From positions 7,812,001-7,876,000 of the forward strand of contig NZ_CP045178.1 of NCBI RefSeq assembly GCF_009296025.1: DNA of 64,000 bases, written 5' to 3'. The notes beneath the pieces were generated by a model that saw nothing but the letters and a program-made list of their open reading frames with translations, was not told the origin of the DNA and searched no databases. A program made the position numbers and the translations under genes. Origin of the DNA: Streptomyces tsukubensis. GTDB taxonomy: Bacteria; Actinomycetota; Actinomycetes; Streptomycetales; Streptomycetaceae. Shown here one piece after another: positions 1 through 38,477 of the stretch (positions within the stretch are counted from its first letter, which is position 1; each line of letters opens with the position of its first letter).

Positions 1-1345
1 GTCCGGGCCAGGGAACTCGGCCGCGACCTGCTCGCGACGGTGCGGACCTCGCTCGCAGAACCGGGCCTTGCGGCGTGCCGGATCGTCGTGGTCACCCGGA
101 CCGGCGATCCCGCGCAGGAAGCACTCGGCGGCCTCGTGAGGACGGCGGGGACGGAGAACCCCGGCCGCGTCGGCCTGATCGAAGCGGACGAGATCACGCC
201 CGCCACTGTCGCGGCCGGGCTCGCCACCGGAGACGAGCCGCACGTCCGGGTCGTCGAAGGCACGGTTCGCGCGGCCCGTCTGCGCCGCGTCGCCGCCTTC
301 AAGGGAACCTCCCCGCTGTCCGCCGGGGCGTCCACGCAGTCCGCCGGGGCCTCCCCGCTGTCCGGCGGGACGGTCCTCGTCACCGGCGGCACCGGCGGGC
401 TGGGGCGGCTCCTCGTGGATCACCTGCTCACCGCACACGAGGCCGCCGAGATAGTCGTGGCGTCCCGCCACGGCCGCCCAGAAGGAGCACAGGACGACGA
501 CCGCGTGCGGTACGTGGCCGCCGACGTCACCGACACGGACCAGCTGGCCACCCTCGTCGATGGTGTAGCCGACCGGCTGCGCGCCGTCGTCCACATGGCG
601 GGGATCGTGGACGACGCCGTCGTGGCGACCATGCGGCCACAGCAGTGGGACGCCGTGCTGCGGGTCAAGGCGGACGTCGCCTGGCAGCTCCACGAGCTGA
701 CGCGCGGCCTCGAACTCGCCGCGTTCGTGCTGTACTCGTCCATCTCCGCGACGTTCGGCGGGGCGGGACAGGCGAACTACGCGACAGGAAACGCCTTCCT
801 CGACGCCCTCGCCCACCACAGGCGGGACCAGGGACTGCCCGCTGTCTCGCTCGCGTGGGGGCTGTGGGACGAGGCCGACGGCATGGGCGGACGGCTGACC
901 GCCACCGACCTGACCCGCGTCGCCCGAGGCGGCATGATCCCGATGACGGCCGCGCAGGGACTCGCGTTGTTCGACGCGGCCCTGCACACCGACCGCGCCG
1001 CCCTCGTGCCGATCAGGCTCGACCTCGCCGCCGTCGCCGCGTCGGGCCAGGTCCCGGCGATCCTGCGCGACCTCGTACCGGCCGTCGGGCGCACGCCCAC
1101 CCCCGCCGCCACGCGCGACACGCTCGAACTGGTCAGGGTGAGCGCCGCCGCGGTGCTCGGCCACCGTGACGCCCACGCCGTCGAACCGGCGCGCGCGTTC
1201 AAGGAGGTGGGCTTCGACTCGCTGACCGGCGTCGAGCTGCGTAACAGGCTGGCCGCCGCGACGGGGCTGACGCTGCCCGCCACGCTCGTCTTCGACCACC
1301 CCACGGCGCAGGCACTCGCCACTCACCTGGACGAGCTGACCGGCG
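1..1345 (+). other. FkbB module 2, C-terminal KR and ACP
   Basis: The KR Rossmann start (VTGGTGGLG) lies near 376 and the Ser/Tyr active site (YSSISA, then QANYATGN) near 735-790. VDD at the LDD position suggests a B-type ketoreductase. The ACP phosphopantetheine serine is in GFDSL at 1219-1221. In FK506 this KR makes the C26 hydroxyl that is later acylated by pipecolate (family knowledge). Confidence 0.85.
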
Positions 1346-14200: not shown

Positions 14201-17200
14201 AACCCACACCTGGACCCGCCACGCCACCGGCACCCTCAGCCGTGCCGGAAACGGAGACGGAGACATCGCAGCGGGCTACCCGTCCGCGTGGCCGCCGCCG
14301 GAGGCGCAACCTGTCGATGTCACCGGGTTCTACGAGCGGCTCGCCGAGATCGGCTACATCTACGGCCCGGCATTCCGCGGCCTGCGCGCCGCTTGGCGCA
14401 GCGGCGAAACCCTGTACGCCGAGGTGGAGATCACCGGGGAAGAGGCGGAACAGACGGAACAGGCGGGCGACGCGTCCAGCTACGGCGTACACCCGGCCCT
14501 GCTCGATGCGGCGCTGCACGTCACCTGCCTGCCGCTGCTCACCGGGCGGGGATCGGAGCAGGAGCCGGAGTCCAGGTCGGAGTCGGAACCGGAGTCTGCC
14601 TCCGAGCCGGAGGTGAAGCTGCCGTTCTCGTGGAGCGGTGTCCGGTTCCACACGACCGGCGCCACCACGTTGCGTGTGGCGATCACCCAGGGCCCGAATG
14701 GCGTGGCCGTGCACGCGGCGGACCCGGCAGGCCACCCTGTGGTGACGGTCTCCGAGTTGGCCGCGCGACCGGTGAACGTCCGCACCGACGCCTACACCGA
14801 CGCCACCGTCCGCGACTCCCTGTACCACCTCTCCTGGACCGAGCTGCCCACTCCGGCAGCCGCCACAGTCGGTCCTGGCCCCACAGCCGACCCAGCCCCC
14901 ACAGTCGACCCAGCCCCCTCAGCGGGTCCTGGCTCCACAGCCGGTCCCGGCCACGCGGATGAGGTCCAAGTCGTCTCAGCGATCCCGGAGCCGGACGCGG
15001 ACGTGCTCGACGAGACGTACCGGCTCACCGCGCTCGTACTCGGTGAGCTGCACCGGGTGGTCGCCGACGACAGCCTCGCGGCGACCACTCTCGTCGTCCG
15101 TATCGACGCGGGGCCGACCGGGGGAGCGGTCGCCGGCCTTGTCAGGTCCGCGCAGGCCGAACACCCCGGCCGGTTCGTCCTCGTGGAGACCGGCGGCGAC
15201 ACCCCCTTCGAGACACTGGCCGCGGCCACGACACTGGCGGAACCGTACGTTCGCGTCACCGACGGCCGGTACGAGGCCCCCCGGCTCCGCCGGACGGCCG
15301 CCACACGGACGCACGAGCCGTTGCTCGACCCGGAAGGCACGGTGGTCATCACTGGAGGCTCGGGTGTGCTGGCCGGTCTCCTCGCTCGGCGCCTGGTCGC
15401 CGAGCACGGCGCCCGCCACCTGTTGCTGCTTTCGCGCAGCGAACCGCCGGTGGACACGCCCGGTGTCCACATCCGCTGCGACGTCTCCGACAAGGACCAA
15501 CTCGCCGCCGCGCTCGCCGCAGCGGACCGGCCCCTCACGGCGGTCTTCCACACGGCAGCGGTGCTCGACGACGGCGTGATCGCGGCACTCACGCCGGAGC
15601 GGCTCGCCACCACGCTGCGGCCCAAGGCAGACGGAGCCTGGCATCTGCACGAACTGACCCGAGGCGCGGACCTGCGCGCGTTCGTCCTCTACTCGTCGGT
15701 CGCGGGCATCCTGGGCGGTCGCGGCCAGGCCAACTACTCGGCGGCGAACGGGTTCCTCGACGGTCTCGCCGCGTCGCGCCGCGCCGAGGGGCTGCCCGCA
15801 CTGTCACTGGCCTGGGGTCTGTGGGCCGACGACAGCGGACTCACCGGCACTATGAGCGGCACGAACAGGACCCGCGTACGGCGCGGCGGTTTCCGCCCCA
15901 TGCGAGCAGGACTGGCCCTCCGCCTGTTGGAAACCGCCGCAGGTACCGGCGCCGCGTTCGCCGTGGCGGCCACGATGGATCCGAACGCGCAGGCGTCCCC
16001 TCTCTTCATGGGGCTGCGCCGTTCCGTGCCGCGAAGGGCGGCCGCCACGACTGTTCCGCTCGCCGAGCGGCTCGGCGCCATGACCGGTGCCGACCGGGAT
16101 GCCGCGCTGCTCGCGCTCGTCCGCGACTGCGCGGCGGCGGTACTCGGCCACGTGGACGCGACGGCCGTGCCGGCGGACGCGGCGTTCAAGGACCTCGGTG
16201 TCGACTCGCTGACCGCTGTCGAACTGCGGAACCGGCTCGCCACGGCCACCGGTGTCCGGCTGCCCGCCACGCTGGCCTTCGACCATCCAACACCACGGGC
16301 CATCGCGTCGCGGCTGGACGAGACGATGGCGGGGAGCACCGTTCCGGCAGCCGTCCCGGCAGCGGCCTCGGTAACCGCCGCGACCCGCGACGATCCGCTC
16401 GCGATCGTCGGCATGGCGTGCCGCCTGCCAGGCGGAGTCGCCTCGCCGGACGACCTGTGGCGGATGCTGGACAACGGTGGCGACGCGGTCACCGGCTTCC
16501 CGGCCGACCGTGGCTGGGACCCGTCAGGCCTCACCGGCGGACCGGACGCGGACCGTGGCGGCTTCCTCTCCGACGCCGCCGACTTCGACGCCGCCTTCTT
16601 CGGGATCAGCCCCCGCGAGGCGCTGGCGATGGACCCGCAACAGCGGATCATGCTGGAGACGACCTGGGAGGCGTTCGAGAGCGCGGGCATCGTGCCGGCC
16701 ACGCTCCGCGGGAGCGACACCGGCGTGTTCATTGGGGCTTTCTCGTACGGGTACGGCGTCGGCGCCGACATGGGCGGGTTCGGCTCGATCGGCGTGCAGC
16801 CCAGCGTCCTCACCGGCCGGATCTCGTACTTCTACGGTCTGCAAGGACCGGCCTTCACCGTCGACACGGCGTGCTCGTCGTCGCTGGTCGCACTGCACCA
16901 GGCGGGGTACGCCCTGCGCCACGGCGAGTGCTCACTCGCCCTGGTCGGCGGCGTCACGGTGATGGCGACCCCAACCGGATTCGTCGAATTCCAGCAGCAG
17001 GGCGGGCTCTCTCCGGACGGCCGCTGCCGCGCGTTCGCCGACACAGCGAACGGCACGGGTTGGGCGGAGGGTGCGGGTGTTCTCGTCGTGGAACGGCTCT
17101 CCGACGCGGAGCGTAAGGGGCACAGGGTTCTCGCGGTGGTGCGTGGTTCGGCGGTGAATCAGGATGGTGCGTCGAATGGTCTGTCGGCGCCGAATGGTCC

Positions 17201-20200
17201 GGCGCAGCAGCGGGTGATTCGGCAGGCCCTGGCGAACGCCGGACTGAGCGGCGGCGACGTGGATGTGGTGGAGGCGCATGGGACGGGGACGGTCCTGGGT
17301 GATCCGATCGAGGCGCAGGCGGTTTTGGCGACGTACGGGCAGGGGCGTGAGGTCCCGTTGTTGTTGGGTTCGTTGAAGTCGAATATTGGTCATGCGCAGG
17401 CTGCGGCGGGTGTGGCTGGTGTGATCAAGATGGTGATGGCGATGCGGTACGGGGTGGTGCCGCGGACGTTGCATGTGGATGAGCCGTCGTCGCATGTGGA
17501 CTGGTCGGTGGGGGCGGTTGAGCTGTTGACGGAGGCGAGGCCGTGGCCGGGGTCGGGGCGTTCGCGCCGGGCGGGGGTGTCGTCGTTCGGGGTGAGCGGC
17601 ACCAATGCGCATGTGATTTTGGAGGGGGTGCCTGAGCTGCCTCCGGGTGGGCGGACCGCGCCGGATGAGGGTGCGGTGTCGGGGTTGGTGCCGTTGCCGG
17701 TGTCTGCTCGTACGGAATCGAGTCTGGCGTCGCTGGTGGAGCGGCTGGATGTGTATGTGCGGGGCGGGTTGTCCGTGGGTGGGGGCCTCGGTGGGGTGGC
17801 GGATGGTCTGGTGCGGGGGCGTGCGGTGTTCGGTCATCGTGCGGTGCTGCTGGGGGAGAGTCGTGTCGCCGGGGTGGCGGTGGACGGGTTGCGGACGGTG
17901 TTCGTGTTTCCGGGGCAGGGTTCGCAGTGGGTGGGTATGGGTGTGGCGTTGATGGCCGCCTCGGAGGTGTTCGCGGCCCGGATGGCCGAGTGTGCGGCGG
18001 CTTTGGAGCCGTTCTCGGGCTGGGATGTGCGGGACATGCTGTCCGGGCCCGAAGTGTTGGAGCGGGTGGAGGTGTTGCAGCCGGCGTCGTGGGCGGTGGC
18101 GGTGAGCCTGGCCGCGCTGTGGCGGGCGCACGGGGTGGTGCCGGATGCGGTGGTGGGGCATTCGCAGGGAGAGATCGCCGCCGCCTGCGTGGCCGGGGCC
18201 CTCACCCTGGAGGACGGGGCACGGATCGTGGCCCGCCGCAGCCGGACCATCGCCGCCCGTCTCGCCGGTCACGGCGCGATGGCGTCCATCGCCCTCAGCG
18301 CCTCGGAGGTGGAGACGGTGGAGGGGGTGTGGATCGCGGCCCGTAACGGGCCCGCCTCCACCGTGATCGCGGGGGATCCGGAGGCGGTGGAGCAGGTTCT
18401 GGCCCGGTACGAGCATGACGGGGTGCGGGTGCGGCGGATCGCGGTGGACTATGCCTCGCACACTCCGCACGTGGAGGCGATCGAGGACGAACTCGCCGAG
18501 GCCCTGGAGGGGATCACCAGTCGGGCCCCGACAATCCCGTGGTGGTCGACCCTCGACAGCGGCTGGATCAGTGAACCCGTCGAGGACGGTTACTGGTATC
18601 GCAATCTGCGCTGGCCGGTGGCGATGGACACCGCCGTCAGGGAACTGGACGGTTCCCTGTTCCTCGAATGCAGCGCCCACCCGGTCCTGCTGCCCGCCCT
18701 CGACCAGCCGCACACCGTCGCGTCCCTGCGTACCGGGGACGGCGGCCATCCCCGCTTCGTCACCGCCCTGGCCGAGGCCTGGACCCAGGGCGCACCCGTC
18801 GACTGGACCACCCTCATCGCCCCCGTCACCCCCACGGCCCGGCTGTTGGACCTGCCCACCTACCCCTTCGACCACAAGCGTTTCTGGCTGCGTCCCGTCC
18901 TGCCGGGGGGTGAGGGGATCGGTCATCCGCTGTTGTCGAGTGCGGTGGTGTTGCCGGGCAGTGATGGGGTCGTGCTGACGGGTCGGCTGTCGTTGGCGAC
19001 TCATTCCTGGCTGGCCGATCACAGGGTGTGGGACACGGTGCTGTTGCCGGGTACGGCCTTTCTGGAACTCGTGGTGCGGGCGGGTGATGAGGTCGGTTGC
19101 GACGCGATCGACGAGTTGGTCATCGAGACCCCGCTCGTGGTGCCGGTGACCGGTGCCGTGGATCTCACTGTCACCGTCGACCGGGCCGATGATGCCACCG
19201 GTCACCGCCCGGTGACCGTCCACGCACGGCCCGAAGGTTCCGACGCCTGGACCCGCCACGCCACCGGCACCCTCACCACCACAACCACAACCACAACCAC
19301 AACCACAGCCACCGCCCCCCACACCCCAGACACTCCCGACCTGTTCCTTCAGTGGCCCCCCGCCAACGCGCACCCCGTCGACCTCACCGCTTTCTACGAC
19401 GAACTCGCCGCCGCCGGTTACGGCTACGGCTCCGCGTTCCAGGGACTGCGCGCCGCATGGCGGGCGGGTGACACGACCTACGCGGAAGTCACCCTCTCCG
19501 ACGAGCCGGCCGCCGAGGCGCCCCGCTATGGCGTGCACCCCGCCCTGCTCGACGCGGCCCTGCAAGCCGTGTCCCTCACCGTGCCGGACGGTAGCTCCCC
19601 CGGCCTGCCGTTCGCGTGGACCGGGGTCCGGTTGGTCACCGTGGGCCCGGCAACGCTCCGCGTCATGCTCACCCGGGACGGGGACACGCTGAGCCTGCGT
19701 GCCGCCGACTCCACCGGCCGGCTGGTCGCCGAGATCCGGACGATCCGGACCCGCCCGCTGTCCCCGCCCATGGGCGCCGGCCTGCTGCGTCTGGCCTGGA
19801 CCGAGGTCCCCGTACCCGTGGACATACCCACGGGCGACGTGGACGTCATCACCCTGCTCACCGGCACCGACGACGACCCGACGGCCAAGACGCGTACGCT
19901 GACAGCCCACTTGCTTGAGGCCCTGACCAGCGCCGACAAGCCCCTGCTCGTGCATACGACACGCCCGCACACCACCGGGGGCCTCGCCACCACCGATCCC
20001 CTCGCCACCGCCGCGGCTGCCGGGCTCCTTCGCGCCGCCCAGGCCGAGCAGCCCGGCCGGTTCGTCCACGTCGAGACCGAGCCCGGCGTCACCCTCGACC
20101 GCGAGCAGCGGCGAATCGCCTTCGCACTGGGCGAGCCACGCCTCCGCCTGCGCCGAGGGCGTTTCGAGGCGGCCCGTCTCACTCGCGTGCCGGAGCCGCT

Positions 20201-22307
20201 CATCGTGCCGCAGAGTGACACGTGGCTGGTCCGACCGTCACAGACGGGCACGCTCGACGGCCTCACCGCGGTCGATTCGGCGGAGCCGTGGCGCCCCTTG
20301 GCCCCGACCGAGGTCCGGGTCGGTGTACGTGCGGCGGGTCTCAACTTCCGTGATGTGCTGATCGCGCTCGGCACCTACCCCGGTAAGGGCGTACTCGGCG
20401 GCGAGGCGGCGGGCGTCGTCCTGGAGATCGGATCCGGCGTGCACGACCTGGCGCCCGGCGACCGCGTCTTCGGCCTCGTGGGGACCGGCTTCGGCCCCAC
20501 GGTCATCGCCGACTGGCGGATGCTGGGCCGGATGCCCGACGGGTGGACGTATCCGCAGGCGGCGTCGGTGGTGACCGTGTTCGCGACCGCCTGGTACGGC
20601 CTGGTGGACCTGGCGAAGCTGCGCCCCGGCGAGAAGATCCTGATCCACGCGGCGGCGACCGGGGTCGGCGCGGCGGCCGTACAGATCGCCCGCCACCTCG
20701 GCGCCGACATCTACGCCACCGCCGGCGCACCCAAGCAGCACCTCGTGGACCTGGACGACGCCACCCACCTCGCCGACTCCCGCACCCCCGAGATGACCGC
20801 CACCTTCCCCCCGGTCGACGTCGTACTCAACTCCCTCACCGGCGATCTCCTCGACGCCTCCGTCGCCCTCCTCGCCACCGGCGGCCGGTTCATCGAACTG
20901 GGCAAGACCGACCTCCGCCACACCGTCCAACAACCCTTTGACCTGATGGACGCGGGCCCCGACCGGCTCCAGCAGATCATCACCGAACTCCTCGGCCTCT
21001 TCGCCGACAACACCCTCCACCCGCTACCGGTCACGGTTCACGACATGCGGCAGGCCCGCGACGCGCTGGCGGTCATGAGCCGGGGCGCTCACGTCGGCAA
21101 GTCGGTGCTGACGGTTCCCCGGCCCCTCGACCCCGAGGGCGCCGTCCTCATCACCGGCGGCTCCGGCACCCTCGCCGGCATCCTCGCCCGCCACCTCGAC
21201 CACCCCCACACCTACCTCCTCTCCCGCACCCCGCCACCGGACACCACCCCCGGCACGCACATCCCCTGCGACGTCAGCGACCCCACCCAACTCACCACCG
21301 CCCTGCACCACATACCCCAACCCCTCACCGGCATCTTCCACACCGCCGGCACCCTCGACGACGCCCTCCTCGACCACCTCACCCCCCACCGCATCGACAC
21401 CGTCCTTAAACCCAAAGCCGACGCCGCCTGGCACCTCCACCACCTCACCCAACACACCGACCTCGCCGCATTCGTCCTCTACTCGTCCGCGGCAGGTGTG
21501 CTGGGCACGCCGGGGCAGGGCAACTATGTGGCGGCGAACGCTTTCCTCGACGCGCTCGCGGAACACCGCCGTACGCAGGGGCTGCCAGGGCTGTCGATAG
21601 CGTGGGGGCTGTGGGACGAGGCGAGCGGTCTGACCGGCGAGCTGACCGACGCCGACCGGCGCCGTATGCGGGAGGGCGGGGCGAGAGCGCTCACCGCCGA
21701 GCAGGGCATGCGCGTGTATGACGCCGCCGTACACGCCGGAACGGGTAGTGTCGTCGCCGTGGCAGGTGAACTCCCCGCAGGATTACCGCTGTTGCGTGGC
21801 CGTGCCAAACAGGTGGTTCGTCGGAGCTCCCGCGACGAGGTCGGGCCTCACACGGACCTCCTCACGCTCGTACGACAGAAGGCGGCCGTCCTGCTGGGGC
21901 ATTCGGGACCGGACGACATCCCGGAGGACGCGGCGTTCCGGGAGCTCGGCGTCGACTCGCTCATCGCGGTGCAACTGCGCAACGGCCTCAACGAAGCGAC
22001 CGGTCTGCGGCTCTCCGCCACGCTCGTCTTCGACTACCCCACGCCGCGCGCGCTCGCCGGCCGTATCGGCCAACTCCTGTCCCCCGACGACCCGGCGGCT
22101 GTGGTGTCCACGCAACTCGACCGCCTTGAGGCACTGCTCGCCGGCATCGACCCCGGCGACCGCGGGACCGACTCGATCGGGACCCGTCTGGGCGCCCTCC
22201 TCGACCGCTGGCAGCGTGCGGGCCGCCCCGCCGAACCGGCCGGTGTGCTGTCCGAGGAGGCGACAGCGGACGAGATCTTCGACCTCATCGACCGGGAGTT
22301 GCGATGA
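11244..22307 (+). CDS. fkbC: FkbC, FK506 polyketide synthase modules 5 and 6
   Basis: A 3687-residue two-module PKS. It begins with a short N-terminal coiled-coil docking segment (residues 1-36), followed by KS-AT-DH-KR-ACP (module 5), KS-AT-DH-ER-KR-ACP (module 6) and a C-terminal docking tail that should meet FkbA. Both ATs carry YASH, the methylmalonyl signature. This set gives a trisubstituted alkene (C19=C20) and then a fully reduced unit, as in FK506. The ATG at 11244 overlaps the fkbB stop (ATGA); ATG at 11253 is an alternative, and neither has a well-spaced Shine-Dalgarno, which suggests translational coupling. Codon 13 is TTA (11280-11282) and codon 3514 is TTA (21783-21785), both rare in Streptomyces. 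The two modules share a near-identical 1.8-kb segment. Confidence 0.95.
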   Translation: MRAMAENDLIDALRASVKDNAKLRRENTALRAATNEPLAVVGMACRLPGGITSPEELWELVADGGDAIGDFPTDRGWDVAALHAAAESATSRAGALMGAADFDAAFFGISPREATALDPQQRILLEIAWEAIERAGIKADMLRGTDTGVFVGGFYYGYGAGADLGGFGAYSTQPAVLAGRLSYFFGLEGPAVTVDTACSSSLVALHQAGQALRSGECSLALVGGVTVMASPQSFVEFSRQGGVAPDGRCKAFADSADGIGLAEGAGVLVVERLSDAERKGHRVLAVVRGSAVNQDGASNGLSAPNGPAQQRVIRQALANAGLGVADVDVVEAHGTGTVLGDPIEAQAVLATYGQDREVPLLLGSLKSNIGHAQAAAGVAGVIKMVMAMRYGVVPRTLHVDEPSSHVDWSAGAVELLTEARPWPGSGRSRRAGVSSFGVSGTNAHVILEGVPELPPGGRTSPDEGAVSGLVPLPVSARTESSLASLVERLDVYVRGGSSVGGGLGGVADGLVRGRAVFGHRAVLLGESRVTGVAVDGLRTVFVFPGQGSQWVGMGVALMAASEVFAARMAECAAALEPFTGWDVREMLADSAVLERVEVLQPASWAVAVSLAALWRAHGVVPDAVVGHSQGEIAAACVAGALTLEDGARIVARRSRSIAARLAGHGAMASIAVPAAEVETVEGVWIAARNGPASTVIAGDPEAVEQVLARYEHDGVRVRRIAVDYASHTPHVEAIEDELAEALEGVSAQAPTIPWWSTLDSGWISEPVEDGYWYRNLRRPVAMDTAVRELDGSLFLECSAHPVLLPALDQPHTVASLRTGDGGHPRFVTALAEAWTQGAPVDWTTLIAPVTPTARLLDLPTYPFDHKRYWIEATTTPGLTDTAHPMLAATTALPTTDGTVLTGRISLRTHPWLADHTIQDTVLLPGTAFLELAVRAGDETGCDTIDELVIETPLTLPATTAVDLTLTIDPPDTTGHHPLTIHARPEGTHTWTRHATGTLSRAGNGDGDIAAGYPSAWPPPEAQPVDVTGFYERLAEIGYIYGPAFRGLRAAWRSGETLYAEVEITGEEAEQTEQAGDASSYGVHPALLDAALHVTCLPLLTGRGSEQEPESRSESEPESASEPEVKLPFSWSGVRFHTTGATTLRVAITQGPNGVAVHAADPAGHPVVTVSELAARPVNVRTDAYTDATVRDSLYHLSWTELPTPAAATVGPGPTADPAPTVDPAPSAGPGSTAGPGHADEVQVVSAIPEPDADVLDETYRLTALVLGELHRVVADDSLAATTLVVRIDAGPTGGAVAGLVRSAQAEHPGRFVLVETGGDTPFETLAAATTLAEPYVRVTDGRYEAPRLRRTAATRTHEPLLDPEGTVVITGGSGVLAGLLARRLVAEHGARHLLLLSRSEPPVDTPGVHIRCDVSDKDQLAAALAAADRPLTAVFHTAAVLDDGVIAALTPERLATTLRPKADGAWHLHELTRGADLRAFVLYSSVAGILGGRGQANYSAANGFLDGLAASRRAEGLPALSLAWGLWADDSGLTGTMSGTNRTRVRRGGFRPMRAGLALRLLETAAGTGAAFAVAATMDPNAQASPLFMGLRRSVPRRAAATTVPLAERLGAMTGADRDAALLALVRDCAAAVLGHVDATAVPADAAFKDLGVDSLTAVELRNRLATATGVRLPATLAFDHPTPRAIASRLDETMAGSTVPAAVPAAASVTAATRDDPLAIVGMACRLPGGVASPDDLWRMLDNGGDAVTGFPADRGWDPSGLTGGPDADRGGFLSDAADFDAAFFGISPREALAMDPQQRIMLETTWEAFESAGIVPATLRGSDTGVFIGAFSYGYGVGADMGGFGSIGVQPSVLTGRISYFYGLQGPAFTVDTACSSSLVALHQAGYALRHGECSLALVGGVTVMATPTGFVEFQQQGGLSPDGRCRAFADTANGTGWAEGAGVLVVERLSDAERKGHRVLAVVRGSAVNQDGASNGLSAPNGPAQQRVIRQALANAGLSGGDVDVVEAHGTGTVLGDPIEAQAVLATYGQGREVPLLLGSLKSNIGHAQAAAGVAGVIKMVMAMRYGVVPRTLHVDEPSSHVDWSVGAVELLTEARPWPGSGRSRRAGVSSFGVSGTNAHVILEGVPELPPGGRTAPDEGAVSGLVPLPVSARTESSLASLVERLDVYVRGGLSVGGGLGGVADGLVRGRAVFGHRAVLLGESRVAGVAVDGLRTVFVFPGQGSQWVGMGVALMAASEVFAARMAECAAALEPFSGWDVRDMLSGPEVLERVEVLQPASWAVAVSLAALWRAHGVVPDAVVGHSQGEIAAACVAGALTLEDGARIVARRSRTIAARLAGHGAMASIALSASEVETVEGVWIAARNGPASTVIAGDPEAVEQVLARYEHDGVRVRRIAVDYASHTPHVEAIEDELAEALEGITSRAPTIPWWSTLDSGWISEPVEDGYWYRNLRWPVAMDTAVRELDGSLFLECSAHPVLLPALDQPHTVASLRTGDGGHPRFVTALAEAWTQGAPVDWTTLIAPVTPTARLLDLPTYPFDHKRFWLRPVLPGGEGIGHPLLSSAVVLPGSDGVVLTGRLSLATHSWLADHRVWDTVLLPGTAFLELVVRAGDEVGCDAIDELVIETPLVVPVTGAVDLTVTVDRADDATGHRPVTVHARPEGSDAWTRHATGTLTTTTTTTTTTTATAPHTPDTPDLFLQWPPANAHPVDLTAFYDELAAAGYGYGSAFQGLRAAWRAGDTTYAEVTLSDEPAAEAPRYGVHPALLDAALQAVSLTVPDGSSPGLPFAWTGVRLVTVGPATLRVMLTRDGDTLSLRAADSTGRLVAEIRTIRTRPLSPPMGAGLLRLAWTEVPVPVDIPTGDVDVITLLTGTDDDPTAKTRTLTAHLLEALTSADKPLLVHTTRPHTTGGLATTDPLATAAAAGLLRAAQAEQPGRFVHVETEPGVTLDREQRRIAFALGEPRLRLRRGRFEAARLTRVPEPLIVPQSDTWLVRPSQTGTLDGLTAVDSAEPWRPLAPTEVRVGVRAAGLNFRDVLIALGTYPGKGVLGGEAAGVVLEIGSGVHDLAPGDRVFGLVGTGFGPTVIADWRMLGRMPDGWTYPQAASVVTVFATAWYGLVDLAKLRPGEKILIHAAATGVGAAAVQIARHLGADIYATAGAPKQHLVDLDDATHLADSRTPEMTATFPPVDVVLNSLTGDLLDASVALLATGGRFIELGKTDLRHTVQQPFDLMDAGPDRLQQIITELLGLFADNTLHPLPVTVHDMRQARDALAVMSRGAHVGKSVLTVPRPLDPEGAVLITGGSGTLAGILARHLDHPHTYLLSRTPPPDTTPGTHIPCDVSDPTQLTTALHHIPQPLTGIFHTAGTLDDALLDHLTPHRIDTVLKPKADAAWHLHHLTQHTDLAAFVLYSSAAGVLGTPGQGNYVAANAFLDALAEHRRTQGLPGLSIAWGLWDEASGLTGELTDADRRRMREGGARALTAEQGMRVYDAAVHAGTGSVVAVAGELPAGLPLLRGRAKQVVRRSSRDEVGPHTDLLTLVRQKAAVLLGHSGPDDIPEDAAFRELGVDSLIAVQLRNGLNEATGLRLSATLVFDYPTPRALAGRIGQLLSPDDPAAVVSTQLDRLEALLAGIDPGDRGTDSIGTRLGALLDRWQRAGRPAEPAGVLSEEATADEIFDLIDRELR
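11350..16320 (+). other. FkbC module 5: KS-AT(methylmalonyl)-DH-KR-ACP
   Basis: KS has its Cys at 11835-11837. AT (about 12850-13800) has YASH at 13413-13424. DH (about 13880-14790) reads HxxxDxxxxP instead of HxxxGxxxxP but keeps Asp in HPALLDAAL. KR (about 15320-15990) has LDD and the SSVAG/NYSAAN active site. The ACP serine is at 16206-16208. Predicted product is an alpha-methyl enoyl unit. Confidence 0.87.
12058..13850 (+). repeat. Near-identical KS-AT segment, module 5 copy
   Basis: From the end of the KS through the AT this stretch matches 17098-18888 (offset 5037) almost base for base, apart from short divergent patches. Its codon use (many GTG, GCG, GGG, TTG) differs from the C-ending codons around it. 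Confidence 0.85.
17098..18888 (+). repeat. Near-identical KS-AT segment, module 6 copy
   Basis: Partner of 12058-13850. The match ends sharply at the post-AT linker (CGTTACTGG versus CGTTTCTGG), after which DH5 and DH6 diverge. Confidence 0.85.
19278..19309 (+). repeat. ACAACC hexanucleotide repeat encoding poly-threonine in DH6
   Basis: An in-frame ACC/ACA tract gives a run of about eleven threonines within a variable loop of the module 6 DH. It is a likely slippage site. Confidence 0.85.
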
Positions 22308-23537: not shown

Positions 23538-24386
23538 GTGGGACACCGGATTCTCGTGATCGGCGCGGGGGTGATGGGCACCGGCATCACCACACTCGCG
23601 CTGCGCCACGGCGTCAGCGTGACGCTCGTGGACACGTCAGAGGCGATCCTCGCGGCGGCGCGGACCCGGATCGCCGCCGAGCTGCGGATGGCACAACTCG
23701 TGGCCGGGCCCGCGGAGACCGACCCCGGCGTGCTCGATACGGCGACATCCGCGCTGCCCGCGATCGGCGGGGCCGATGCGGTGATCGAAGCCGTTGTCGA
23801 GGACGCCTCGGTCAAGGCGGACGTACTCGCCACGGTCTCGGCCGCCGCGCCGGGCACCCCGATCATCACCAACACCTCGTCGATCCCGGTCGACGAGCTG
23901 GCCGACGCGGTGAAACGGCCGGAGGACCTGCTCGGCACGCACTTCATGAATCCGTCGTACGTGATCCCGACGGTCGAGGTGATCCGTGGGCCCAGGAGCG
24001 GCGAGGCCGCCATGGCCGCCGTCGCGGAGCTGCTCGCGGTACTCGGCCGCAAGCCGATCGTCGTCAAGGACGCGCCCGGCTTCGTCACGAGCAGGCTGCT
24101 CCACCCGATGATCAACGACGCGGCTCGGATCGTACGGGAGGGCACCGCGTCCGCCGAGGACGTCGACGCGCTCATGACGGGCTGCCTCGGCCACCCGACA
24201 GGTCCGCTGCGCACCGCGGACCTGATCGGCATCGACAACCTCGTCGACGCGCTGTCGGTACTGCACAAGCGCACGGGGGACGAGCGCAGCCGCCCCTGTG
24301 ACCTGCTGCTCGGCATGGTCCGCGACGGGCACCACGGCCGGAAGACCGGGCGTGGCTTCTACGACTACGAAGAGGTGTTCCGGTGA
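23538..24386 (+). CDS. fkbK: FkbK, 3-hydroxyacyl-ACP dehydrogenase of methoxymalonyl-ACP synthesis
   Basis: About 282 residues, resembling 3-hydroxyacyl-CoA dehydrogenases. An N-terminal NAD-binding Rossmann motif (VIGAGVMGTG) is followed by NTSSIPVDELA and GTHFMNPSYV, which are typical of the family. In methoxymalonyl-ACP synthesis FkbK oxidises the glyceryl-ACP hydroxyl. I chose GTG at 23538 because GGAAGGAGGAGG lies just before it (23522-23533); an in-frame upstream ATG at 23511 overlaps fkbL and would place the SD inside the gene. The stop overlaps the fkbJ start (GTGA). Confidence 0.93.
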   Translation: MGHRILVIGAGVMGTGITTLALRHGVSVTLVDTSEAILAAARTRIAAELRMAQLVAGPAETDPGVLDTATSALPAIGGADAVIEAVVEDASVKADVLATVSAAAPGTPIITNTSSIPVDELADAVKRPEDLLGTHFMNPSYVIPTVEVIRGPRSGEAAMAAVAELLAVLGRKPIVVKDAPGFVTSRLLHPMINDAARIVREGTASAEDVDALMTGCLGHPTGPLRTADLIGIDNLVDALSVLHKRTGDERSRPCDLLLGMVRDGHHGRKTGRGFYDYEEVFR

Positions 24387-24643
24387 CAGTCCCCGTCAAG
24401 GACGACCCTGTGGCGCGTGAGCTGGTCGCGTTCCTTGAGAACAAGACCAGGGCGCCCTGGTCGGTGGAGCGTGACCTGTTCGCGGAGGGCGGCCTCTCGT
24501 CGCTCTTCGCGCTGGAGCTGGTGGTCTTCCTGGAGAAGACGTTCGACGTCAGCATCGGCGGCTCCGACCTCCAGCTGGTGAACTTCCGCACCGTCGTGTC
24601 CATGGTCGAGCTCGTCCACCGGCTGAAGGACGGTAATGGCTGA
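24383..24643 (+). CDS. fkbJ: FkbJ, stand-alone acyl carrier protein for methoxymalonyl-ACP
   Basis: An 86-residue ACP. The phosphopantetheine site is within EGGLSSLFALEL (Ser40), with Ser rather than the usual Asp before the modified serine. FkbJ carries the C3 unit while FkbH, FkbK, FkbI and FkbG turn it into methoxymalonyl-ACP for modules 7 and 8 of FK506. The GTG start overlaps the fkbK stop by four bases, and its end overlaps the fkbI ATG by eight, consistent with coupled translation. Confidence 0.94.
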   Translation: MTVPVKDDPVARELVAFLENKTRAPWSVERDLFAEGGLSSLFALELVVFLEKTFDVSIGGSDLQLVNFRTVVSMVELVHRLKDGNG

Positions 24644-25736
24644 CCGTGAGACGCTGCTGACCGGCCTCGTCGGTGACCGGGCCGCCGAGTGGGACACGTC
24701 CGGCGAACTGCCGCGTGACCTGCTCGTCAGGCTCGGCGCCGACGGCCTGCTGTGCGCCGAGGTCGCGGCCGAGCACGGCGGTCTCGGCCTCGGAAGCCGT
24801 GAGAACGGCGAGTTCACCGCGCACGTCGGCAGCCTCTGCGGCTCGCTGCGCAGCGTCATGACGTCGCAGGGGATGGCCGCGTGGACCGTGGCGCGGCTCG
24901 GCGACACCGGTCAGCGGGCCACGTACCTGAAGGAGCTGACCAGCGGGAAGCTCGCGGCGGTCGGCTTCAGCGAGCGGCAGGCGGGCAGCGATCTTTCGGC
25001 GATGCGGACGCGCGTGCGGATCGAGGGAGACACCGCCGTCGTCCACGGTCACAAGGTCTGGACGACCGCGGCCGGATACGCGGACCACTTGGTCGTCTTC
25101 GGCCTCCAGGAGGACGGTTCCGGCGCGGCGGTGGTCGTACCCGCCGACGCCGACGGCGTACATGTCGAGCGTGTCCAGAAACCGTCGGGTTGCCGCGCCG
25201 CCGGCCACGCCGACCTGCGTCTCGACGGCGTGCGCGTGCCGGCCGGCGCGGTTCTGGCAGGCTCAGGAGCGTCGCTGCCGATGCTCGTCGCGGCGTCGCT
25301 CGCCTACGGACGCAAGTCGGTCGCCTGGGGCTGCGTCGGGATTCTGCGCGCCTGCCGAACCGCCGCGACGGCCCATGCCAGGACCAGGGAGCAATTCGGC
25401 CGGCCGCTCGCCGACCATCAACTCGTCGCCGGGCACCTCGCCGATCTGTGGACGGCCGAGCAGGTCGCGACGCGTGTCTGCGAGTACGCGAGCGACCGCT
25501 GGGACGAGGGTTCGCCCGAGGTGGTGACCGCCACGGTCCTCGCCAAACACGTCGCCGCCGAACGAGCCGCAGCGGGTGCCGCGACCGCCGCGCAGGTCCT
25601 CGCCTCCGCGGGCGCGACCGAGGGGCACGTCGTCGAGCGGGCGTACCGCGACGCGAAACTCATGGAGATCATCGAGGGCAGCAGCGAGATGTGCCGGATG
25701 ATACTGGCGCGGCACGCGCTGGCGCTCCCGGCCTGA
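24636..25736 (+). CDS. fkbI: FkbI, acyl-ACP dehydrogenase of methoxymalonyl-ACP synthesis
   Basis: A 366-residue flavoprotein of the acyl-CoA dehydrogenase family. Features seen include SGKLAAVGFSERQAGSD (substrate/FAD region), HKVWTTAAGYADHLVVFG and a C-terminal KLMEIIEGSSEMCRMILAR segment. In the pathway it oxidises the ACP-bound three-carbon unit together with FkbK, generating hydroxymalonyl-ACP. It lies directly between fkbJ and fkbH on the same strand. Confidence 0.93.
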   Translation: MADRETLLTGLVGDRAAEWDTSGELPRDLLVRLGADGLLCAEVAAEHGGLGLGSRENGEFTAHVGSLCGSLRSVMTSQGMAAWTVARLGDTGQRATYLKELTSGKLAAVGFSERQAGSDLSAMRTRVRIEGDTAVVHGHKVWTTAAGYADHLVVFGLQEDGSGAAVVVPADADGVHVERVQKPSGCRAAGHADLRLDGVRVPAGAVLAGSGASLPMLVAASLAYGRKSVAWGCVGILRACRTAATAHARTREQFGRPLADHQLVAGHLADLWTAEQVATRVCEYASDRWDEGSPEVVTATVLAKHVAAERAAAGAATAAQVLASAGATEGHVVERAYRDAKLMEIIEGSSEMCRMILARHALALPA

Positions 25737-25746
25737 GAGGACGGTC

Positions 25747-26835
25747 ATGACCGACACGACCATCGTCAAGTGCCTGGTCTGGGACTTGGACAACACATTG
25801 TGGCGGGGCACCGTGCTGGAGGACGACGAAGTGGTGCTCACCGACGAGGTCCGCGAGGTGATCAGGACGCTCGACGGCCGGGGCATCCTCCAGGCGGTGG
25901 CGAGCAAGAACGACCACGACCTGGCGTGGCGGCACCTGGAACGGCTCGGCGTGGCGGAGTACTTCGTATTGCCGCACATCGGGTGGGGGCCCAAGTCGCA
26001 GTCCGTCAGGAAGATCGCCGAAGGGCTCAACTTCGCGCCGACCACGCTCGCGTTCGTCGACGACCAGCCCGCCGAGCGCGCCGAGGTCGCGTTCCACCTG
26101 CCAGAGGTGCGGTGCTATCCGGCCGAGCGAGTGACCGCGCTCCCGGCGCTGCCGGAGTTCAGCCCGTCGGCCTCCACGGTCGACTCGCGGCGCCGCCGCC
26201 TCATGTACCAGGCCGGCTTCGCGCGCGATCAGGCCAGGGAGACGTACGCAGGCCCCGACGACGACTTCCTGCGCTCCCTCGACCTGCGCATGACGATCGC
26301 ACCCGCGGGCCACGAGGAACTCACCCGTGTCGAGGAGTTGACGCTGCGGACCAGCCAGATGAACGCGACAGGCGTGCACTACTCCGACGCCGCACTGCGC
26401 ACGCTGCTCGCCGACCCCGCACACGAGGTCCTCGTCGTCACCATGGGCGACCGTTTCGGCCCGCACGGCGCCGTCGGCATCGTCCTGCTGGAGAAGAAGC
26501 CGTCGGTGTGGCACCTGAAGCTGCTCGCGACGTCCTGCCGGGTCGTGTCGTTCGGCGCCGGTGCGACGATCCTCAACTGGCTCACGGACCGGGCCGCACG
26601 CGCCGGGACCCACCTGGTGGCGGACTTCCGGCGCACGGAACGCAACCGCGTGATGGAGATCGCCTACCGGTTCGCCGGCTTCGCGGAGAGCGACTGCGTG
26701 TGCGGGTCGGCGCTGGGTGACCCGGCAGGGCGCATCGAACGCCTGCACCTGGAGCCCTCGCCGCGTCCCACACCCAGCACGCTGACGCTGACCGCCGCGG
26801 CCGGCATTCCGTTCACCGCTTCCGCAGCAAGGTGA
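25747..26835 (+). CDS. fkbH: FkbH, glyceryl-ACP-forming HAD-family enzyme
   Basis: 362 residues. The N-terminal HAD motif [11 protein letters not shown] (about residues 11-21) is the signature of FkbH-like enzymes, which take 1,3-bisphosphoglycerate, dephosphorylate it and load the glyceryl unit onto the ACP. The C-terminal half has the acyltransferase-like part of the family, with a Cys in [14 protein letters not shown] at 25747 has GAGAGGACGG before it. Its 3' end overlaps the 3' end of the convergent fkbG by 23 bp (26813-26835), so there is no space for a separate terminator. Confidence 0.95.
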
Positions 26836-27240
26836 TGCCGTCGGCCGTCGTGAGCATCGCCAGGTCCACCCGGTCGTCGTCGCGCAGCGCCGCGTTGAGC
26901 GCGCGGACCGCGACCGTGTCAGGGTCCTGCACCGTGTCGTCGGCCACCCGCCCGAAGAACAGGGTGTTGTCGACGATGATCAGGCCGCCGCCGCGCACCA
27001 GCGGCAGCGCCGCCTCGTAGTACGCCGGATAGCCCGCCTTGTCCGCGTCGATGAACACGACGTCGAACGAACCGGGGCCCGCGCCCGCCTCGTCGATCAG
27101 CCCGGCGAGCACGTCCCCACACCGCCACCCGGCAGCCCGGCCGACTCCGCTCGCAGCCGGCTCAGCGCCTCGTCGTCGCGGAGGGACACCTCCCTGACGT
27201 AAGCGAGGAGTGCGTCGGACGTCGTCACCTGATTCGCCAT
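26813..27240 (-). pseudogene. fkbG: FkbG, methoxymalonyl O-methyltransferase, internally deleted and frameshifted
   Basis: The start ([18 protein letters not shown]) and the C-terminal half (from [11 protein letters not shown], with [17 protein letters not shown] and [12 protein letters not shown]) both match the caffeoyl-CoA-type O-methyltransferase family to which FkbG belongs. They are in different frames, joined around 27106-27135, and only about 140 residues remain of a protein that is normally near 220. The missing part is where the SAM-binding motif I should be. As sequenced, the first frame stops after [11 protein letters not shown] and no functional methyltransferase can be made. FkbG should methylate hydroxymalonyl-ACP. 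Either the strain carries a real deletion or this is an assembly/cloning defect. The best SD (AGGAGAGGAG) is rather far upstream of the ATG at 27240. Confidence 0.85.
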
Positions 27241-27264
27241 GTGCGAAATGCTCGGCGGATTTCC

Positions 27265-27317
27265 CCGCTCCTCTCCTGGTGCGGACCTCAAGTCAGGGGG
27301 GTCCAGGGGGAGAGCGG
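27265..27317 (-). terminator. Imperfect hairpin between allD and fkbG
   Basis: The 90-bp gap between allD and fkbG can fold into a long imperfect stem: CCGCTC/GAGCGG outer arms, CCTGG/CCAGG, and an inner GGACC/GGTCC. It could weaken transcription from the allylmalonyl genes into fkbG. There is no clear T tract. Confidence 0.35.
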
Positions 27318-27330
27318 TATACGGGCCGGG

Positions 27331-28491
27331 CTACGTGCGTTTCGCGGTGGGTACGACGAAACGCTGGAAGACCAGATCACGCAGGACGTCGTCGCCGCCT
27401 TCGATGATCGAGGCATGCCGCACGTCCCGCAGCAGCTTCCCTATCGGCATCTCGTGCGTGTACCCGAGGCCGCCGAACATCTCCGACGCGGCGGAGGCGA
27501 TCTGCCAGGCCGTCTGCCCGCAGAACATCTTCGCGGCCAGTGCCGACTTCTGAGCACCCTGCCGCAGCAGCGTCCTGGCGGCGTCCGGCCTCGCGGCCGT
27601 CGCGTCATAGGTGCGCGCCGCCGCGAGACACTGGGTGGCCATCACCTCGATCTGCATCTCGAACTGGCCGAGCCGTCCGACGAACACCGCGTCCTTCACG
27701 AGCGGCGCGCCCCTGAGCGACTTCGTCCTCGCGTACTCCATGCACAGGTCGCGGATCCTGCGCGCGACACCCAGCGCGGTGGCGGCGATCAGGATCCGGC
27801 TGGCGTTGAGCCCGATCTCCAGCAGACGCAGCCCGTTGCCGTTCAGCGCGTGGTCCGAGGGGACGCGGCAGTCGACGAACGACACTTGATACGTCGCAGA
27901 GGCCCGCAGGCCGATGACGTCCCAGCGTTTGTCGACCCGCAGCCCTGGCGTGTCCCGAGGGACAGTGACCGCCAGGTACTGGCCCGGGTCGTCCGCAGAG
28001 CGGGTGATGACGACGAGGAACTGGGCGAAGTCGGTGCTGGTGGAGAAGGCCTTGGTGCCGTCGAGCACGAGGCTTTCGCCGTCCCTGCGCACCATGGTGG
28101 AGATCTTGGCCAGCTCGCTGCCGGCCTCGTGCTCGCTGCCGAGCGTGGCGCAGAAGCCCCGCTGGGCCACGAGACGGCCGAGGTATTTCTCCTTGAGCTC
28201 CGTACCGCCGTACCAGCTGACCATGCTGGTCGTCAGGATGGGCAGGAACAGGGTGAAAGCCACCCCGGCGTCCCCGTAGGCGAGTTCGGAGACGATACGC
28301 ACACTGTCTTCGAGACCGAGCCCGAGGCCACCGTGTTCCTCGGGAACCCACCAGTTCATCAGGCCCGTCCCGGCGAAGCGCTCGTACAGCGCCAGAGGTG
28401 CGTCCGCGAGCGAGTCGAGGTGGGTTTCCCGACCCAGGATCTCCTGGGAGACGAACTTCCGCACAGTGTCCAGGTGTTCGGGGTCACTCAC
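27331..28491 (-). CDS. allD: AllD (TcsD), acyl-CoA/ACP dehydrogenase of allylmalonyl-CoA synthesis
   Basis: 386 residues of the acyl-CoA dehydrogenase family. N-terminal [35 protein letters not shown] and C-terminal [19 protein letters not shown] are family segments. In FK506 producers AllD desaturates the terminal end of the five-carbon chain, giving the allyl rather than the propyl side chain. GTG at 28491 is chosen because AAGGACGG lies just upstream, and it starts 3 bp after the allR stop. It is last in the allA-K-R-D operon. Confidence 0.92.
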
Positions 28492-28493
28492 CG

Positions 28494-29825
28494 CTACCGT
28501 CCTTTCTGGAACAGGTTGATCCGGTCGAGTTTGCGGGCCCTGAGGGCGTGGTCGCGCACCCCCATGCCGGGTCGGTCGGCGAGGCAGAGCACCCCGACCT
28601 TGCCGTGGTGGCTGTTGCCGGCCACGGCCCGGGTGGCCTCCCCGACGGCGTCGAGGGGAAAGGACTGCGAGAGCACCGGGTGGATGCTGCCCCGTACGAC
28701 GAGGTCGTTGGCGGCCCAGGCCTCCCGGTAGTTGGCCATGTGCGACCCGATGATGCGTTTGACGTGCATCCACAGATGGCGGTTGTCGTAGCTGTGCTGA
28801 TAGCCGGTGGTCGAGGCGCAGGTGACCACGGACCCGCCTCGCGCGGTGATCATGACGCTGATGCCGAAGGTCTCCCGGCCCGGGTGCTCGACGACGATGC
28901 TCGGGTCGTCCCCCGCCAGGTTGCGGACGGCGCTGCGGAACCGGCTCCACTCACTGAGGCGCGGCCGGTCCTGCTCGTCCCAGAAGGTGAAGTTCTCGGC
29001 CGCGCGGTCGATGACGAGCTCCGCCCCCATCCGGCGGCACAGGTCGGCCTTGGCCTGCGACGACACGACGCAGACAGGGACGGCGCCGCCGTTGAGGGCC
29101 AGTTGGGTCGCGTACGCGCCGACGCCGCCGGCCGCTCCCCAGATCAGGACACGCTCGCCCTGCTTCATGTCCGCCCCGTGGTGGGAGACCAGCTGACGGT
29201 AGGCGGTGGAGAGCGCCACCCCCAGCGAGGCGGCCTCCTCCCACGTGAGGTGCGCGGGTTTCGGCATCAGCTGGTTGGCCTTGACCAGGGAGATTTCGGC
29301 GAGGCCGCCGAAATTCGTCTCGTACCCCCAGACCCGCTGCCCGGGGTCAAGCAGAGTGTCGTCGTGTCCACCGGGGGTCTGGAGGTCCGGCTGTAGACAG
29401 TGCGCGACGACCTCGTCGCCGGGCTTCCATTCGCGTACGCCGGGTCCGGTACGCAGCACCACCCCGGAGAGGTCGGAGCCGAGTACGTGGTAGGGCAGGT
29501 CGTGCCGGGCCGCCTCCGGTGAGGTCCTGCCGAACGTGCGCAGGAAGCGGAAGGTGGGCACGGGCTCGAACAGCGCCGACCACACGGTGTTGTAGTTGAT
29601 GGAGCTGGCCATGGTGGCGACGAGGACCTCGCCGTGGCCCAACTGCGGGGTGGCGACCTCCCGCACATGGACCGTCCTACGGGGGTCCCTGTCCCCGACG
29701 GGCGTCGCGGTGACGGCCTGCTGATCCGCCGCGAGGACGACGGCGGCGCGGTACCCGGCGGGGACGTCGCAGGCGGCGACGGCCTGCGGGTCGTCCGTGG
29801 CCGCTGCGTCGCGAAGGTGACTCAT
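28494..29825 (-). CDS. allR: AllR (TcsC), crotonyl-CoA carboxylase/reductase homologue
   Basis: 443 residues, full length for a crotonyl-CoA carboxylase/reductase. These medium-chain dehydrogenase-fold enzymes reduce and carboxylate 2-enoyl-CoA to alkylmalonyl-CoA using NADPH and CO2. The NADPH motif is in [17 protein letters not shown]; the N-terminal [18 protein letters not shown] segment is typical. In the FK506 pathway it carboxylates the 2-pentenyl-type substrate to make the allyl- (or propyl-) malonyl extender for module 4. Its ATG overlaps the allK stop by four bases. A general ethylmalonyl-CoA role cannot be excluded, but the allA/allK/allD neighbours decide. Confidence 0.94.
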
Positions 29826-32219: not shown

Positions 32220-33509
32220 TCACCGCTGTTCGGCGGCGGGGGTGGCGCCCTCGCGCAGCAGCCCGGTGATGTACGTGGCGAGGCCGGAGACGGTGGCGTA
32301 CGTACCGGCGTTGGCGTCGTTGAGCCTGTCCGCCAGGCCGAACCGGCGCAGTGCGCGTTCCTGTAGCTCGGTCATCGCCAGCGAGTCGACCCCGAGATCG
32401 GCCTGGAAGTCGGCGTCGTCGGTGACCACCTCAAGCGGATACTCCAGGATCTCGGCGCACACCGCGCGTACTCCCTCCAGCACCTCCGCGTCGGCCCCGG
32501 CAGCGGGCTCGGCGGCCCCGGGAGCGTCGGCCACGGCCGACGGCCGCGCCGACCGCAGCTGGCCGGACAGATCGGGGACGGTCATGGCCTCGGAGAGCGG
32601 TGCGAGAGTCACCGCGTGGGGCAGCGTCCCGGAGACGATCCTGGTGAGGACGTCCAGCGCACCGCACTCCACGAAGGTCGTGACACCCTCGGCGTTCATC
32701 GCGCGCACCGCTTCGTGGAAACGGACCGGCCGGGTCATGTCGGCCACCATCAGATCGACCACGTCGTCGTGCGCGGTCAGGAAGCGGCCCAGGCCGTGGG
32801 AGTAGAAGAAACCCTCGCGGGGCGCGGACATCCGCACGGTCCGCATCGTCGTCGCGTAGAGAGCACTCGCGTCCGCCAACTGCGGTACGTGGAAGGGGCC
32901 GGGGACATGGAGCCTGGACGTGCGGATCCCCGCCTCCTTGGCCAGCCGCCGCACCTCCACCAGATCCGCTTCCGTGCCGCTGACCACCGTCTGGCTCGGG
33001 GCGTTCCGCGCCGATACGGCCGAGGCCTCGGCCCGCGCCGAAGCGATCAGCTCCTCGGCACGGGCGGTGTCCGCGTTCACCGCGAGCATCCCGCCCTCGG
33101 GCGGCGGCGCCTTGCGCAGGGTGGCGTGGCGCTCGCAGACCGCCCTGGCGGCCTCGCCCGGGGTGAACACCCCCGCCACGGCCAGGGCGGCGAACTCCCC
33201 GAGACTGTGCCCGACCACATGATCGGGAGTCACCTCGTAACGGGAGTCCAAAAGCTCCGCCAGGGCGATGGAGGTCGCCAGGATGGCCACATCGAGACGC
33301 TCGTGATCGGACGCGAGCAACTGTGCCAGTGTGGGAGCGTCCGGTGAGAACAACAGCGGCCGCACCGGAGCCAAATGAAACTCGGCCAGGACCGCGTCGA
33401 TCTCCTCGACACGTGCCGATATCCGATCGGCGTCCGCGCCGATACCGGCGAAGACGCCGGGCACGTACGACCCCTGGCCGGGGAAGAGGAACGCCACCCC
33501 ACTGGTCAT
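32220..33509 (-). CDS. allA: AllA (TcsA), acyltransferase-ACP didomain protein
   Basis: 429 residues. The N-terminal malonyltransferase-like AT has FLFPGQGSYVPGV, GHSLGEFAALA and a downstream PGPFHVPQL. The C-terminal ACP has the serine in DLGVDSLAMTEL (around residue 385). It supplies and holds the substrate for AllK. I chose ATG at 33509, preceded by AAGGACGATGAC; the open frame continues upstream to 33740, but without family similarity. First gene of the allA-K-R-D operon; a candidate promoter lies about 230 bp upstream. Confidence 0.93.
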   Translation of the reverse strand: MTSGVAFLFPGQGSYVPGVFAGIGADADRISARVEEIDAVLAEFHLAPVRPLLFSPDAPTLAQLLASDHERLDVAILATSIALAELLDSRYEVTPDHVVGHSLGEFAALAVAGVFTPGEAARAVCERHATLRKAPPPEGGMLAVNADTARAEELIASARAEASAVSARNAPSQTVVSGTEADLVEVRRLAKEAGIRTSRLHVPGPFHVPQLADASALYATTMRTVRMSAPREGFFYSHGLGRFLTAHDDVVDLMVADMTRPVRFHEAVRAMNAEGVTTFVECGALDVLTRIVSGTLPHAVTLAPLSEAMTVPDLSGQLRSARPSAVADAPGAAEPAAGADAEVLEGVRAVCAEILEYPLEVVTDDADFQADLGVDSLAMTELQERALRRFGLADRLNDANAGTYATVSGLATYITGLLREGATPAAEQR

Positions 33510-33735
33510 GTCATCGTCCTTTCGTATGAATGGCCCGAGCTGGTGGCACCCGGACAGCTCGGGCCGGCACTTCTCCTGCCGGACAGGGGGAACCGAGGAA
33601 CACGACTCCGGACACGCTCGGCCGGACGTGACGGGCACGATGGGACGGCGGGCGCCGCACCACACCTTCCGCGCCTGTCGCGACCAGCACGGAACCCGGC
33701 ACGACAAGCGGGACTCTCCGTACGGGAATGGCTTG

Positions 33736-33765
33736 AGCATAAGGAGCGGGTCATTGACCCGTCAG
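33736..33765 (-). promoter_or_regulatory. Candidate allA promoter with a palindromic operator in the spacer
   Basis: Reading the - strand, CTGACG (33765-33760) and TATGCT (33741-33736) are 18 nt apart, resembling -35/-10 elements. The spacer holds GGGTCATTGACCC (33748-33760), a palindrome with 6-bp arms around one central base. This layout suits a repressor or activator site. It is about 230 bp upstream of the allA ATG. A guess from pattern only. Confidence 0.3.
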
Positions 33766-35208: not shown

Positions 35209-35290
35209 GGGGTTCCTCCAGTAATTCCGAGTCAGTGTCAGAGGGCAGGGCAGGCCGGGCGGTGCAGTCGCGACAGTGAAGGCCGGTCGG

Positions 35291-36568: not shown

Positions 36569-36609
36569 GCGTGCCTCGCCTCTGTCGGATCCGGTGGGGG
36601 GAAGGGAGT

Positions 36610-37443: not shown

Positions 37444-37445
37444 CG

Positions 37446-38132: not shown

Positions 38133-38189
38133 GTCCGGTGCTCAGCCCGTCTGGATTCAGGGAGGTGGAAGTGTCAGGAGGGACAGGGG

Positions 38190-38235: not shown

Positions 38236-38241
38236 GGCCGT

Positions 38242-38469: not shown

Positions 38470-38477
38470 GTCGTGAC

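Follow-up and report, generated by a model that had tools for sequence, protein, structure and literature searches.

The question raised by this locus is whether a Streptomyces tsukubensis strain carrying an FK506 gene cluster has lost the methyltransferase gene fkbG, and what such a loss would mean for the methoxy groups at C13 and C15 of its product. In the window, i.e. the whole stretch of 64,000 nucleotides that was analyzed, the fkbG locus adjoins fkbH-I-J-K and runs on the minus strand from 27240 to 26813, where two gene pieces match the two ends of FkbG. A preliminary description of this DNA had proposed that about 39 N-terminal and about 100 C-terminal residues survive in different frames, with about 80 residues, including SAM motif I, missing between them. 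As a yardstick we used the nearest relative found, NPDC044780 (hereafter G419; genome of 10.04 Mb), which came from a search of 392 Streptomyces genomes with 2754 bp of window DNA.

Structure of the fkbG locus and its gene neighborhood

The DNA of G419 is 87% identical to window positions 25749-27113 and, beyond a gap, 80% identical to another 147 bp (27119-27265); its own fkbG is open over 225 codons (222 from an internal ATG). Base-by-base DNA alignment with this intact ortholog, which the preliminary description had suggested as a means of defining the deletion ends, reveals a single 241-bp gap between the two parts of a gene that is otherwise gap-free. As 241 is 1 mod 3, the two remnants are in different frames. 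The locus can be divided as follows:

27097..27240, minus strand: fkbG 5' remnant, with its ATG at 27240 in the open reading frame list; the first 40 codons are FkbG-like (27121-27240), followed by an out-of-frame run to a stop at 27097-27099
27112..27121, minus strand: fkbG deletion junction, where 241 bp of the intact ortholog are absent according to the DNA alignment and the blastn pieces, the exact base being ambiguous by a few bases
26813..27112, minus strand: fkbG 3' remnant, a 99-codon open frame that begins at an internal GTG and ends at the native stop, corresponding to the C-terminal part of PF01596 and lacking SAM motif I

The proposed residue counts were right to within a residue or two. 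As assembled, one internal deletion would have removed residues 41-121 or thereabouts, together with the SAM-binding loop, and shifted the frame; the absent residues include VLEIGTYTGYS, which we take to be SAM motif I and which falls within the missing 241 bp. The remaining parts are well matched to G419 FkbG, with 89 of 99 residues identical in the C-terminal part and 32 of 40 in the N-terminal part (35 of 39 when the latter is compared with the S. kanamyceticus protein, P0052), and judged by their sequences these matches are not due to chance. Seven intact FkbG orthologs (P0050-P0056, from G419/NPDC044780, S. cucumeris, S. kanamyceticus (partial), NPDC094448, S. tsukubensis, S. qinzhouensis and MJM7001) are 67-90% identical to the window's fkbG in the N-terminal part and 84-92% in the C-terminal part, and all seven read through the SAM motif, whereas the window copy is without about 81 residues. 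The S. kanamyceticus protein, encoded on a 5914-bp contig, ends in GIPFTASA and not in the usual TLLRKR; GIPFTASA is a match to the C terminus of FkbH in the window, and the end of that contig looks as if it were chimeric.

When the fkbH-fkbG region of G419 was compared by DNA search with 394 genomes of the family, 59 matched at E 1e-100 or better, and among the matches listed only G419 itself showed high-identity cover of both fkbH and fkbG. A contig scan with the 99-residue frame as the reference for the deletion ends was set aside, its relatives being at most 71% identical among the best 80 of 165 matches, a set that may omit records very near the window's genome.

In a profile search the 99-residue frame covers only positions 118-203 of the 204 of PF01596 (Methyltransf_3) and the N-terminal part matched none of the profile models; the full domain is not present in the window's fkbG. 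Nearly the whole model is matched by FkbG of G419 and by FkbG2, a second homolog in the window's genome that is described below. In the methyltransferase fold of FkbG the SAM-binding loop sits in the part that is missing here, and solved O-methyltransferase structures related to FkbG were found by sequence. From this fold family we strongly infer that the remnant pieces have no activity, and neither fragment would be able to methylate hydroxymalonyl-ACP. A truncated but active FkbG is ruled out by the complete absence of the central residues. No working FkbG is readable from the locus in the window, which agrees with the earlier proposal that the SAM-binding core has been lost and, with it, FkbG function. 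A search of the window's genome for the missing stretch at ortholog level did not find it; the best of three matches (63%) lies within fkbG2.

The surrounding genes are these:

1..11247, plus strand: 3' part of fkbB, open; the gene starts left of the window
11244..22307, plus strand: fkbC, a two-module polyketide synthase (PKS) gene, open, 3687 codons
22480..23517, plus strand: fkbL, matching PF02423
23511..24386, plus strand: fkbK, 3-hydroxyacyl-CoA dehydrogenase type, open
24383..24643, plus strand: fkbJ, acyl carrier protein, open, with matches to acyl carrier protein models
24636..25736, plus strand: fkbI, acyl-CoA dehydrogenase type, open
25747..26835, plus strand: fkbH, intact, with a 3' end that overlaps the fkbG stop; TIGR01686 FkbH domain, 407 bits, profile 1-323 of 323
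27331..28491, minus strand: allD, acyl-CoA dehydrogenase, open, with a start codon assigned by visual inspection of the sequence
28494..29825, minus strand: allR, zinc-type dehydrogenase/reductase domains, open; placed as in the gene order given in the available part of PMC6022917
29822..32212, minus strand: allK, ketosynthase, open
32220..33740, minus strand: allA, acyltransferase-ACP, open

We take fkbH to encode a glyceryl transferase/phosphatase, fkbL (by its name) a lysine cyclodeaminase, and allR, partly from its place in the gene order, presumably an enzyme of the crotonyl-CoA carboxylase/reductase type. The remaining genes for methoxymalonyl-ACP had been described as intact, and this holds for fkbH, fkbI, fkbJ and fkbK, all of which have open frames and domain matches; for fkbI and fkbK the matches are to dehydrogenase models, extend across most of their length and score under the curated cut-offs of the specific families concerned. 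With 60 kb read to the left of the window, the overall order is fkbQ-N-M-D-A-P-O-B-C-L-K-J-I-H-G-allD-R-K-A, the same as in the published short-type FK506 cluster, where fkbN is assigned by its AAA_16 domain and position only, allR by its dehydrogenase domains and position, and fkbO by position only. To the right of allA, seven genes (34366-41586) carry, in turn, methyltransferase, P450, no, TetR, P450, short-chain dehydrogenase and luciferase-type domains, and none of these seven is an AsnC-type allN. Farther along, on the minus strand from 47163 to the end of the window at 64000 and beyond it to about 83940, another modular PKS shows overlapping frames, with frameshift-like switches near 51636, 58829, 61042, 61110 and 74411 called by a detector that has a high false-call floor.

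Recent loss or sequence error

The age of the lesion can be approached through its C-terminal remnant, whose amino-acid identity to G419 is 0.891 across 101 codons; of the codon differences, 18 are synonymous and 11 non-synonymous (counted in the C-terminal part only, the short N-terminal part being misaligned and therefore excluded). The corresponding identities of the neighbors are 0.907 for fkbI, 0.844 for fkbH and 0.724 for fkbJ. This codon comparison with G419 gave no sign of long neutral drift in the remnant, and because the remnant shows no decay, the lesion should be either recent or artifactual.

We consider it possible, if rather doubtful, that the deletion is an error of assembly or consensus and that the strain has a normal fkbG. 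The reason for taking this seriously lies in fkbA of the same assembly, which starts 18 kb left of the window and extends over window-relative positions -18348 to -37680 (contig C2 about 7774321-7793652). A complete in-frame fkbA was not found: relative to fkbA of G419 there are ten lasting frame changes, nine of them within 1146 bp (cds 1248-2393; the end of KS7 and AT7), several of these being single-base changes beside C or G runs, and one more at cds 14869 (about -33217). Two additional excursions, of 12 and 7 aligned bases, return to frame at once and were counted as alignment wobble. In spite of this density of frame changes, the AT7 stretch has an amino-acid identity of 0.82 (ungapped codons) versus 0.836 in the next 2.6 kb. 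As natural decay lasting long enough for nine indels should also have raised substitutions, the AT7 indels in fkbA are most likely sequence errors, dense indels without substitution decay resembling a local fault of that kind. Repeats are ruled out as their cause, since only 2.8% of the 31-mers of the AT7 stretch are repeated within the 144 kb examined; repeats do fit the site at -33217, where the figure is 86%. The nine frame changes in 1.15 kb and the one downstream make the assembly quality in the FK506 cluster doubtful, so that some doubt extends to fkbG and counts against the explanation that we favor.

Against an error at fkbG itself stands the nature of the defect, a clean loss of 241 bp with no small indel nearby, which is of a different kind from the fkbA indels, and fkbG has no repeated 31-mers within the same 144 kb. 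The genome as a whole also argues against it. Frameshift-like switches numbered 46 in twenty 20-kb stretches of the window's genome (400 kb) versus 35 in twelve stretches of the control G419, i.e. 11.5 and 14.6 per 100 kb, both figures probably being mostly detector noise. A first detector had proved too insensitive, with 2 calls in the fkb region, and the retuned version used for these counts recovered 41 of 64 simulated deletions (in 8 of the 12 control stretches) at the price of a high floor of calls. With respect to frameshifts, the window's genome thus shows no gross excess overall.

A further argument comes from public records. In the protein collection, two contigs contain the 99-residue fkbG fragment, and the longer of them, at 8,615,214 bp, belongs to the window's genome. 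For the strain's FkbM (259-residue query), a match with 100% identity is recorded on a 58,617-bp contig; the window's genome has two contigs, and this is a different one, which implies one or more additional records of the lineage. If such a record carried an intact fkbG, a protein closely resembling the fragments would be expected among the top matches to FkbG. A search with full-length FkbG gave, among the best 120 of 3120 matches, only seven that exceed 71% identity to the G419 query, and none of these seven is an intact fkbG of the window's own strain, the closest being 90% (N-terminal part) and 92% (C-terminal part) identical. A second public record may therefore carry the same 99-residue fragment, which favors a real deletion, with the caveat that an intact gene might sit at the end of its contig, or that both contigs could stem from a single assembly.

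The damage to fkbA also bears on the idea that the whole FK506 cluster is dead or dying, with fkbA truly frameshifted and fkbG lost once selection had ended. FkbA as assembled cannot be made, its start and end being in different frames, but amino-acid change is not in excess in either AT7 or the C-terminal remnant of fkbG, and the genes fkbB, fkbC, fkbP, fkbH-L, allA, allK, allR and allD are open. The concentration of nine of the ten fkbA frame changes in 6% of the gene is likewise unlike random decay, and we regard this idea as improbable. The earlier suggestion that the pathway may be blocked is true of the assembly as written, in which fkbA breaks it as well as fkbG, and the damage seen in fkbA resembles sequence error more than decay. 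Taken together, the lesion is most likely a real and recent loss of fkbG, one that is probably covered by a second cassette.

A second methoxymalonyl-ACP cassette and the FK506 product

Besides fkbG, the window's genome has four other matches to PF01596. One of these, fkbG2 (C2:8563137-8563799), encodes a complete 220-residue FkbG homolog that is 61.7% identical to G419 FkbG and contains a SAM motif of its own, VLEVGTFTGYST. The opposite strand next to it carries homologs of FkbH (65.1% identity), FkbI (63.9%), FkbJ (55.1%) and FkbK (60.2%), all in open frames, so that intact fkbG2, H2, I2, J2 and K2 stand together as a cassette at C2:8563137-8567917, about 0.72 Mb from fkbG. Farther along are a 492-codon gene, a KSIII-like protein and a PKS of 2162 residues (region C2:8563137-8578209). 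The latter has an N-terminal short-chain dehydrogenase, a KS and a KR, as well as a dehydratase match that is weak and below its cut-off; its Pfam table contains no acyltransferase domain. G419 also has a second full methoxymalonyl-ACP cassette, at C1:8500916-8505182, in the order G-K-J-I-H.

The preliminary description had allowed that another methyltransferase may substitute for FkbG, and with fkbG2 in its full cassette this general suggestion now has a named candidate, which would offer another possible route to methoxymalonyl-ACP. Because the same genome holds a complete second gene set, the loss of fkbG may be harmless. The explanation that we favor, although tentatively and with slightly less than even confidence, is that fkbG is a recent pseudogene formed by one 241-bp deletion, and that any FK506 made by the strain most likely owes its C13 and C15 methoxy groups to the second, complete methoxymalonyl-ACP cassette on the same chromosome. 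Two routes can be envisaged: FkbG2 could methylate hydroxymalonyl-FkbJ in trans, or the whole second cassette could deliver methoxymalonyl-FkbJ2 to AT7 and AT8. Counting against either FkbG2 or FkbJ2 working with the FK506 machinery, FkbJ and FkbJ2 are only 55% identical. The wider claim, that a natural FK506 producer no longer has a methoxymalonyl-ACP methyltransferase of its own and has come to depend on the cassette of an unrelated PKS 0.72 Mb away, with two clusters sharing one extender-unit supply, appears to us possible and rather unlikely.

The loss of fkbG could in principle alter the product, and it had been proposed that the C13/C15 substituents are changed, the assembly line running without methoxymalonyl-ACP and making FK506 with hydroxy, hydrogen or methyl groups at these positions. 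Intact fkbH-K could still supply hydroxymalonyl-ACP, and a natural hydroxymalonyl-ACP pathway without a nearby O-methyltransferase is described for butyrolactol A in the accessible text of PMC5355916, which makes the idea chemically reasonable. It finds no support in the acyltransferases and, with a second methyltransferase (fkbG2) available in the genome, we give it only a small chance. According to the FK520 literature, AT7 and AT8 would take methoxymalonyl-ACP. AT8 of the window's strain has an identity of 0.85 to AT8 of G419 and 0.66 to AT7 of G419, with the next best AT of that genome at 0.51, so its class appears unchanged; AT7 is broken into frames in this assembly, and its pieces align with G419 AT7. 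AT8 thus seems to keep the sequence type of the relative, and nothing in it suggests a shift to malonyl or methylmalonyl units or an adaptation to altered C13/C15 groups.

Whether the lesion is real or not, by itself it predicts no new FK506 analog. A real deletion would make the strain a natural test of extender-unit enzyme sharing between biosynthetic clusters, and a sequence error would make product predictions from the PKS genes of this assembly unsafe, above all those from fkbA.

Other strains with related clusters

A frameshift in fkbG has been reported for S. tacrolimicus (formerly ATCC 55098) in PMC3551636, citing Mo et al. 2011. According to the available portion of that source, S. 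tacrolimicus is a low producer of FK506 and not a non-producer, the absence of fkbR and the fkbG frameshift being given as possible reasons. A short cluster is listed for S. tacrolimicus and for S. kanamyceticus KCTC 9225 in the accessible part of PMC6022917. As far as these excerpts go, S. tacrolimicus resembles the window in combining a defective gene for the hydroxymalonyl-ACP methyltransferase with an FK506 cluster of the short type (published as without fkbR and without allMNPOS), and its published lesion, termed just a frameshift, may or may not be the 241-bp deletion seen here. Judged by titles and abstract openings, none of the fkbG literature matches listed deals with what an fkbG mutant produces. 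As PMC3551636 already records a defective fkbG within an FK506 cluster, novelty in this respect is low, and what can be tested is whether two clusters share an extender-unit cassette.

The FK506 producer S. tsukubaensis F601 (PMC5477335) has a genome of about 8.5 Mb with 70.45% G+C and 64 tRNA genes, and its cluster partly resembles the clusters of S. kanamyceticus and S. tsukubaensis 18488; fkbG is not mentioned in that paper. Should the window come from F601 or from S. tacrolimicus, either of which would be a guess, FK506 would be produced by a strain on record with this lesion, and the second cassette would become the foremost explanation. The window's genome measures 8.63 Mb, with 70.6% G+C in a 400-kb sample and 65 tRNA matches.
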